This document shows, piece by piece, positions 45,707 through 47,635 of a stretch of 64,000 nt of DNA; the stretch's first letter is position 1; every line of letters begins with the position of its first letter. The notes beneath the pieces are model-generated. The model saw only the letters and a program-made list of their open reading frames with translations. It did not search any database and was not told the origin of the DNA. A program made the translations under genes and the position numbers. Source of the stretch: Akkermansiaceae bacterium. Its GTDB lineage: Bacteria; Verrucomicrobiota; Verrucomicrobiia; Verrucomicrobiales; Akkermansiaceae. The stretch spans positions 372,001 to 436,000 of the forward strand of contig JABDRB010000003.1 of NCBI GenBank assembly GCA_013041925.1. Reading direction: 5' to 3'.

Positions 45707-45925
45707 CTACGGTTGCCCGTCTGATGGCTCAGCTGATGGATCAGCAGCAGCCTCCGCACCCTTCTTGTTTTCCGTTATCTCCTTTTTCGTTTCCCCCTCA
45801 ACCTTGTCCTCACCCGGAGAACATTTATTCGACATTCATGTGGGGACGCCGAAGGCGGGCAGAATCCATAACTGAAGGGCAAAGTAAACCGCAACAATGC
45901 CGACAAAAAACCAGATGTTGTTCAT
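45707..45925 (-). CDS. Candidate small selenoprotein, or nonsense-interrupted membrane protein
   Basis: From the ATG at 45925 the frame reads one transmembrane segment (IWFFVGIVAVYFALQLWIL), then PAFGVPT, an in-frame TGA (45836-45838), then MSNKCSPGEDKVEGETKK and an acidic tail to TAG at 45707. The 72 codons stay in frame through the TGA. Twelve bases after it a hairpin forms: TGTTCTC (45823-45817) with GAGGACA (45811-45805), 7 bp with one G-U, loop CGGGT. The loop lies 19 nt from the TGA and has G at position 2, as bacterial SECIS elements require in my recollection. It follows the globin gene by 31 bp on the same strand. No clear Shine-Dalgarno. A mutated Cys codon is the main alternative. 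Confidence 0.45.
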
Positions 45926-45956: not shown

Positions 45957-46328
45957 CTACTGGTTCTTCATATTATTCGCCACCATGGTGAAAAACGTGC
46001 GTAACTCCAACTGGATGGACTCCGGCACCTTGGTCTCCACCATTGCCTCATCCATCAACTCCAGCCAGCGCGTGACTTCAGCATCACCAATGGCAAAAGG
46101 GGCATGGCGCATACGCAAGCGAGGATGCCCCCGCTTCGCCTGATACCTCGGGTCGTTGCCAAACCGAAACAACAAAAAATCACGCAGCCGTTCCTCCGAC
46201 CCCTCCATATCCTCTTCAGGATACATCGGCTTAATCAGATCATCCGTTTTGATCCTCTTATAAAAAGCCGCCACCATCTTGGTGAATCCAGCTTCGCCTA
46301 AAATGGTGTATATAACAGCTTCGTCCAT
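45957..46328 (-). CDS. Truncated haemoglobin (group II-like)
   Basis: 123 residues. The family pattern is visible: a helix with FTKMVAAFYKRIKTDD, MYPEEDMEGSEERLRDFLLFRFGNDPRYQ, and the proximal-His region HPRLRMRHAPFAIG (HP.LR.RH.PF.I is diagnostic). Group II globins bind O2/NO and often act in NO or oxidative stress. Start MDEAVIYTILGEAG. It lies 20 bp after argG and before the TGA-containing gene, all on the minus strand and likely co-transcribed. Confidence 0.9.
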   Translation of the reverse strand: MDEAVIYTILGEAGFTKMVAAFYKRIKTDDLIKPMYPEEDMEGSEERLRDFLLFRFGNDPRYQAKRGHPRLRMRHAPFAIGDAEVTRWLELMDEAMVETKVPESIQLELRTFFTMVANNMKNQ

Positions 46329-46348: not shown

Positions 46349-47635
46349 TTACGCGTCTTGCTGGCGGGCGCTCGCCTTAAGACGAAGTGCATTCAATGAA
46401 ATGAATCCCGTGGCGTCATCCTGATTGTAGGCTTCCTCGGCACCACCTTCCATGGTGGCAATATCCTCGCAGTAGAGTGAGAACGGCGAGCGACGACCGG
46501 CCTGCATGCAGTTTCCTTTATACAGCTTGAGCCTGACTTCTCCAGACACCGTTTGTTGGGTCGAGGTCACGAGTGCCTGAATGGCCTCACGCTCAGGGGC
46601 AAACCAGAAACCGTTGTAGACCAACTGGGCGTATTTAGTGATGAGGTCGTCACGCACATACTGGGCCTCCCGGTCCACCGTCAACGTCTCCAAATCACGG
46701 TGCGCGGCAAGCATGATGGTTCCGCCTGGCGTTTCATAAATCCCGCGCGACTTCATCCCGACAAAGCGGTTCTCCACAATGTCAACCCGACCAATACCAT
46801 GTTTACCGCCAAGGAAGTTTAAGACACGCATCACTCCGTAGGGACTGAGCAGGGTGTAACCGTCTTGTTCTCCGCCAACCTCAAAATCACCCAAGTCAGC
46901 GATCACTTGGTCAAGCCCCTCATACTTGAGGCCAACGATGTCCCCTTTTTCAAACAGGAACTGCACATACTCAGGGGTGTCTGGTGCCTCTTCAGGAGAA
47001 ACAGAAAGCACATACATGTCACGATCAGCTTCACCCGTGGCGTCATACCACGTGTCTTCCAACGCCCCAGCTTCAAAGGAAATATGCAGTAAGTTACGGT
47101 CCATCGAATACGGCTTCTTCTTGGAGGCCGTCACGTCGATCCCGTGCTCTTCACAGTAGGCAATCATTTCGGAGCGCCCTGGGAACTGAGCGCGAAACTC
47201 CGCATCCCGCCATGGAGCAATCATCTTGATATCAGGGGCAAGCGCGGCAACGGATAACTCGAAACGCACCTGATCGTTTCCTTTGCCCGTCGCGCCATGC
47301 GCTATGGCATCGGCACCTTCTTTGATGGCAACATCGACCATCCCCTTGGAAATACATGGACGTGCAATGGACGTGCCCAGCAGGTATCGGCCTTCATACA
47401 GTGCATTGGCTTGGAACATCGGGTAAATGTAGTCGGCGGCAAATTCTTCTTTGAGATCGCCGATGTAACACTTGCTCGCACCCGTGCTCAAGGCTTTCGC
47501 CTCAAGACCGTCAAGCTCCTCGCCCTGACCGACGTCAGCACAATAGGCAATGATTTCAGCATTATACTTTTCCTTGAGCCAGAGAAGAAGAACCGAGGTA
47601 TCAAGACCTCCCGAGTATGCGACAACGATTTTCAT
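46349..47635 (-). CDS. argG: Argininosuccinate synthase
   Basis: Joins citrulline and aspartate in arginine synthesis. 428 residues. The N-terminal ATP pyrophosphatase loop is [17 protein letters not shown], with [31 protein letters not shown] and [26 protein letters not shown] blocks intact. Length is slightly above the typical 400-410. The start ATG is supported by the conserved [10 protein letters not shown]. Its leader has three tandem ATGGATTR octamers (47643-47666). argB lies 30 kb away, so the arginine genes are scattered. Confidence 0.97.

Follow-up and report, generated by a model that had tools for sequence, protein, structure and literature searches.

Gene arrangement at the locus

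The stretch of Akkermansiaceae DNA analyzed here (the window, 64,000 nucleotides) carries on its minus strand, at positions 45707-45925, a candidate small selenoprotein gene of 72 residues, wherein selenocysteine (Sec) is assigned to codon 30 and the frame closes with a TAG stop. Translation of 45925-45707 yields MNNIWFFVGIVAVYFALQLWILPAFGVPT-U-MSNKCSPGEDKVEGETKKEITENKKGAEAAADPSAEPSDGQP-stop, with a single in-frame TGA. This TGA (45836-45838) is considered a candidate Sec codon on the basis of the TGA/Cys column in homologues and the co-occurrence of the gene with selA. Residues 5-24 (WFFVGIVAVYFALQLWILPA; 45854-45913) form a predicted membrane helix, as judged by eye from hydrophobicity, and the end of this helix is the best-conserved region of the protein in the profile alignment. 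Beyond the TGA, which is immediately followed by an ATG codon, lies a probable partner Cys codon (45821-45823) in a U-x4-C arrangement that recurs in homologues. A putative bacterial SECIS hairpin with a 7-bp stem and a CGGGU loop spans 45805-45823, an assignment that draws on folding, covariation and a synonymous-recoding control. The original prediction for this locus was that a membrane protein frame continues through the TGA for another 42 codons, and the frame is indeed open over all 72 residues, with a conserved tail.

Next to this gene on the same strand is a bacterial-like (truncated-type) globin gene at 45957-46328 (PF01152, E 7e-25), the neighbor that had been expected. Judged by their spacing, the globin and selenoprotein genes may form one unit. 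Farther upstream, at 46349-47635 on the minus strand, argG codes for argininosuccinate synthase and is listed for context. The neighbors seen in the window's genus are argG (10 distinct loci) and the globin (nine distinct loci), and among the 135 distinct loci compared, globin adjacency is found in this genus only.

Distribution of the protein and its TGA/Cys column

Homologues of the protein are found in three bacterial groups. The protein is present in 63 of the 195 genomes of the window's family, and profile searches gave matches in 62 of 386 genomes of its order, in 36 of the 53 from the order of G403, in 47 of the 396 from the order of G404, and in four of 387 genomes of a phylum-wide sample, all four from the window's family; these counts include weak, chance-looking matches (G058 in the family and order searches, G127 in the order search, G772 and G795 in the order of G403, and G930, G1029, G860 and G1086 in the order of G404), two of which are the loci L217 and L218. 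We call the order of G403 Obscuribacterales-type after its member loci from Candidatus Melainabacteria (L085), Candidatus Obscuribacter (L086) and Candidatus Obscuribacterales (L096), and the order of G404 Pirellulales-type after a member locus from Pirellulaceae (L101). Loci of the window's own kind come mostly from Akkermansiaceae, Verrucomicrobiales or Roseibacillus.

All 30 of the best family loci read carry TGA at the Sec column. When duplicates are removed, the column holds TGA in 114 of 135 distinct loci and a Cys codon in the other 21, which is the substitution that had been sought in homologues. The ratio of TGA to Cys is 46 to 1 in the window's family, 9 to 0 in two other families of the same order, 35 to 1 in the Obscuribacterales-type order and 24 to 19 in the Pirellulales-type order. 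The motif filter that defines these 135 loci leaves out, among others, the Cys fragment L153 and locus L106. The former, from genome G756, has TGT at the column and is otherwise near-identical to L165 from G757, which has TGA. Locus L106 (3042-3182) has CGA (Arg) at the column, and its frame closes after another six codons; selA is present in its genome.

The homologues run past the position of the TGA; they either continue in frame through this codon or have Cys in its place. One Pro, one Gly and the Sec/Cys column are invariant in the 27-row profile alignment, and one Gln, one Trp, one Leu and one Thr are each conserved at 90% or more. The tail past codon +12 exhibits a pN/pS ratio of 0.49 (34 overlapping pairs), indicative of purifying selection.

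Co-occurrence with the selenocysteine machinery

The original prediction had proposed searching the genome for selA, selB, selC and selD, and all four genes are present in this 3.28 Mb assembly (98% complete), each above its curated cut-off. The scores are 504 bits for selA (cut-off 268), 324 bits for selB (cut-off 242), 370 bits for selD (cut-off 125), which has an in-frame TGA of its own, and 56.4 bits for tRNA-Sec (cut-off 47), which ARAGORN likewise reports as tRNA-SeC with anticodon tca.

Matches to selA occur in 70 of the 195 genomes of the window's family, 69 of them above the cut-off. A match is present in 58 of the 63 genomes that have the protein versus 12 of the 132 that do not (Fisher 2e-31, uncorrected for kinship). 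The five protein-positive genomes that lack a selA match are G015, which encodes the Cys form, and four with TGA: G052, G095, G106 and G150, whose completeness is 96%, 83%, 70% and 72%, respectively. Genome G015 is 96% complete and has TGT at the Sec column (VPTCASGAC), and of ten genomes checked directly it alone was without selA. In the Obscuribacterales-type order, selA exceeds the cut-off in 32 of 36 positive and six of 17 negative genomes, and a match above the cut-off was not found in the positive genomes G786, G788, G789 and G790. Two genomes, G796 and G756, have Cys at the column, yet selA is present.

Evidence for a bacterial SECIS element

According to the bacterial SECIS model as given in section 5 of PMC13188914, the hairpin lies 16-37 nt downstream of the UGA, has a G among the first loop bases and has a folding energy limit of -7.5 kcal/mol. 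The window hairpin (TGTTCTC-CGGGT-GAGGACA, 45823-45805) begins 12 nt after the TGA, its loop starts 19 nt 3' of the TGA, and the second loop base is G. It passes these constraints in our scan with -8.0 kcal/mol, and a plain 40-nt fold gives -7.0, which misses the limit. Its stability is no better than that of dinucleotide shuffles (z -0.52; 54 of 200 shuffles as good), and 39 of 100 synonymous recodings of the window gene (L021) fold at least as well. The SECIS-like hairpin originally noted holds up in its geometry, spacing, loop G and family covariation, but taken alone it does not rise above chance. As a result, the case is decided by comparison, through the conserved frame, the TGA/Cys column and the covarying stem.

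The family as a whole provides this comparison. The published model accommodates 42 of 44 non-redundant Sec members, whereas over 100 synonymous recodings, in which codons are drawn from the same post-TGA stretches, the number of these members that pass averages 26.7 and never exceeds 35. Two hairpin classes encompass all but four of 56 sequences. In class I (25 sequences; CGGGU, AGGUG and similar loops), 158 of 175 stem cells are paired and 24 cells show double changes, compared to 76-111 paired (43-63%) and 3-16 double changes in slid controls. In class II (27 sequences; CGGUCG loops), the values are 154 of 189 cells with 41 double changes, compared to 71-97 paired (38-51%) and 4-12 double changes. 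Cells are anchored at the loop and related sequences are each counted singly in these comparisons, and because the stem register and the classes are taken from the hairpins themselves, there is a bias in their favor relative to the slid controls.

A strict scan that requires a G[G/U] loop is passed by 108 of 113 Sec members versus 10 of 21 Cys members. Codon choice is also telling: the Val encoded by the loop in SVE, PVG or SVG peptides is specified by GTC in 59 of 59 Sec members, versus 59 of 220 for other Val codons in the tails. Among Cys members, the sole loop Val counted is encoded by GTT, and the uncounted fragment L153 retains GTC.

Partner residues and additional in-frame TGA codons

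The U-x4-C pair that had been proposed for the window protein is the commonest arrangement, although it is not invariant: 91 of the 114 loci with Sec and 17 of the 21 with Cys have a Cys at +5. The remaining Sec loci have a second candidate Sec 9-13 residues on (15 of 114), Cys at +4 or at +6 to +8 (four), Cys only ahead of the Sec, as in LPACGIPTU (three), or neither partner (one). A second redox-capable residue near the Sec, as expected of a two-residue redox relay, is present in all but one of the 114 Sec loci of this protein family.

In 15 distinct loci, another TGA follows no more than 14 codons after the first and the frame stays open past it; this second candidate Sec sits about where other members have the partner Cys. 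Locus L108, of Verrucomicrobiota bacterium JB023, is predicted to encode two Sec residues. Each of the 15 second TGA codons has a hairpin (-7.5 to -17.1 kcal/mol) that passes a looser scan, one permissive enough that the Cys member L109 passes as well. In 13 of the 15, the hairpin has a GGUC loop at 23 nt, and we give more weight to this constant position and loop than to the mere passing of the scan. An even more extensive array is found in L120 (1393-1503, minus strand), where four in-frame TGA codons recur at exact 36-nt steps within a tandem repeat (SQSGSTUGS-like), each with its own hairpin (-9.0 to -13.7 kcal/mol) whose loop is 20 nt downstream. This protein possibly includes four Sec residues within 37 residues.

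Other additional TGA codons are arranged differently. Locus L030 (1492-1704) has a second TGA 29 codons past the first (TAPTUGVKGCPPGEDN) and no Cys near its first Sec. A late, C-terminal second TGA in Roseibacillus-type members (L034, L037, L041, L044 and L046) was considered as a Sec codon and rejected. We regard these late codons as true stops: in L034 the codon (ECAP-TGA) overlaps with the start ATG of the following gene, which is of the TANGO2/NRDE type (a label taken from the Pfam match of the neighbor of L109).

Thioredoxin joins and neighboring genes

At four Pirellulales-type loci, the module is fused in frame to a thioredoxin domain carrying WCGPC. Two of these joins have Sec (L177 and L214) and two have Cys (L181 and L188, the latter scanned as L225). 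The joined domains match PF00085 with E values of 1e-28 to 3e-32, and those of L177 and L181 also match TIGR01068. All four have a Met near the start of the thioredoxin portion, suggesting that thioredoxin might also be made alone and might still be produced at these loci if Sec insertion fails.

Genes of a sulfur-handling type recur near members from the Pirellulales-type and Obscuribacterales-type orders. They include a fusion of an MBL fold with rhodanese, which we read as persulfide dioxygenase-rhodanese, a TauE protein, YgaP-like membrane proteins, an SQR-like flavoprotein whose best NCBIfam match, below the cut-off, is to type III sulfide quinone reductase of the selenoprotein subtype, and a flavoprotein-rhodanese that is near CoA-disulfide reductase, again below the cut-off. 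An SQR-like flavoprotein of that type at L220 (2780-3970, minus strand) has a 397-codon frame with no TGA.

With flanks of mostly about 1.5 kb per side, sulfur-type genes are found near 12 of 43 Pirellulales-type and 11 of 36 Obscuribacterales-type loci, but near only one of 47 loci in the window's family and none of nine other Verrucomicrobiales loci. Among 32 longer loci, chosen from the 79 of both orders after a first look at the neighbors, 11 of the 84 nearest ORFs are of the sulfur type versus one of 95 at 3-6 kb, and all 18 found there share the strand of the module. The counts per locus were made against fixed references. A cluster of neighbors from 23 loci was dropped as a count because single-linkage clustering had lumped together unlike proteins, some with rhodanese and some of other kinds.

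Taken together, the thioredoxin joins and the sulfur-type neighbors suggest that reactive sulfur species (persulfide or polysulfide) are handled at the membrane. The near absence of such neighbors in Verrucomicrobiales makes a sulfur role a weak proposition for the window's own protein.

Interpretation of the locus

Two simpler explanations for the interrupted frame must be weighed. The gene might encode an ordinary 29-residue membrane peptide, with the DNA beyond the TGA being either non-coding or a 42-codon frame reinitiated at the ATG. After all, TGA is a stop codon elsewhere, and ATG is the next codon both in the window and in 79 of the 114 Sec loci. However, the other 35 Sec loci have a different codon there, the Cys homologues read straight on, the stem covaries, and the frame after the TGA is conserved (pN/pS 0.49), leaving this explanation very improbable. 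Alternatively, a Cys gene might have been broken recently by a Cys-to-stop change, as the existence of Cys homologues and the near-identical TGT/TGA pair of L153 and L165 could suggest. Decay of this kind would spare neither the hairpin nor the tail, and TGA is the majority codon in every clade (46/47, 35/36, 24/43 and 9/9) and tracks selA, such that we assign this explanation almost no likelihood. Neither reinitiation nor a broken Cys gene is adequate when TGA is kept in three bacterial groups together with a covarying hairpin. Of the three outcomes that the original prediction had named as refuting it (missing sel genes, homologues that stop short of this point, and a column with neither Cys nor Sec), none was observed.

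The conserved frame, the TGA/Cys column, the covarying SECIS and the Sec machinery, all established computationally, support the original proposal of a small membrane selenoprotein. On these sequence comparisons, we conclude with high confidence that the locus is a real selenoprotein gene of an apparently undescribed family. SelB carrying Sec-tRNA would dock on the hairpin just past the UGA at codon 30 and insert selenocysteine, thereby allowing the ribosome to proceed for another 42 codons; otherwise, a bare membrane helix would be produced. In its mature form, the protein is expected to have one membrane helix and to place its selenol at the membrane face within a (V/I)xTU(M/L)SxxC-like motif. 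Most likely, the Sec and its partner Cys or second Sec would alternate between a reduced state and a selenenylsulfide, diselenide or (per)selenosulfide, and the oxidized pair would be reduced again by thioredoxin. For the family, we consider it reasonable to infer a Sec/Cys relay that is tethered to the membrane and served by thioredoxin, and we hypothesize that the function is that of a membrane-tethered selenol/thiol redox module. Persulfide or polysulfide as the substrate draws its support from the Pirellulales-type and Obscuribacterales-type orders only, and its extension to the window protein is by inference.

A selenoprotein with no role in sulfur chemistry is quite conceivable, if somewhat short of an even chance. 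Such a protein might take part in a membrane peroxide or methionine-sulfoxide relay, bind selenium or a metal, or act with the globin in nitric oxide or oxygen chemistry. The globin adjoins the gene in the window's genus, Verrucomicrobiales members have almost no sulfur-type genes nearby, an AhpC/TSA-family gene adjoins L114 (as read from L253), and the multi-Sec forms could hold selenium or metal. Nevertheless, the globin was seen in a single genus, whereas the thioredoxin joins and same-strand sulfur-type neighbors recur in two other groups. We also entertain, as a tentative proposal that may well prove wrong, the broader idea that the proteins of all three groups are membrane-tethered selenol relays for reactive sulfur, feeding or drawing on thioredoxin, and that Sec plus SECIS serves as a portable cassette from which natural two- and four-Sec proteins have arisen. 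The codons of the hairpin themselves encode the loop peptide (SPGE, PVG or SVEQ), and so copying of the unit would add both a Sec and its own decoding signal.

If these selenoprotein assignments are correct, the double and fourfold UGA/SECIS arrays offer a natural test of serial UGA recoding in one bacterial message, and together with the GTC codon for the loop Val, a test of how SECIS elements constrain peptide sequence. Likewise, the thioredoxin joins and sulfide-type neighbors open to testing a connection between selenium and the handling of persulfide at the membrane. Gene-calling software can be expected to stop at the 29-residue peptide or to omit the gene. The family would also be easily missed by homology pipelines, as its members are very short, no domain model was found for them, and the Cys relatives are mostly elsewhere (19 of 21 in one other bacterial group, the Pirellulales-type).

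Comparison with known systems

The window protein has no match in Pfam, NCBIfam or, as a single sequence or a profile, PDB, and the homologues L226, L085, L047 and L101 likewise have none in NCBIfam. No entry in Table 1 of PMC13188914 (2026), which covers 119 prokaryotic selenoprotein families and subfamilies, fits by name or motif. By these sources and the literature searched, the family is apparently undescribed. An older uncharacterized hypothetical selenoprotein family, GOS_A, is named in PMC2398784.

The gene resembles the bacterial SECIS selenoproteins catalogued in PMC13188914 in its UGA, its hairpin with a G and a 16-37 nt spacing, its Cys homologues and its co-occurrence with selA. 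In that catalogue, TsoB, a rhodanese/DsbD fusion, has the nearest motif spacing (UxxxxU), and those short members that were scanned gave no match to it. Thioredoxin (PF00085, TIGR01068) is joined to the module in four relatives, whereas the window protein lacks a thioredoxin domain. The relatives in the two other orders resemble the YgaP-like membrane domain (PF11127) in that they are small membrane modules beside genes of a persulfide-handling type. Sulfide-oxidation clusters (MBL-rhodanese, SQR-like and TauE) provide a similar context for these relatives, but one that is nearly absent in the window's clade.

Finally, the multi-Sec forms would parallel vertebrate selenoprotein P and the prokaryotic proteins with two or three Sec residues in carrying several Sec per chain. 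The SECIS elements of selenoprotein P reside in the 3' UTR. In contrast, the forms described here have tandem hairpins, one per UGA, and in L120 four UGA codons follow one another 36 nt apart.
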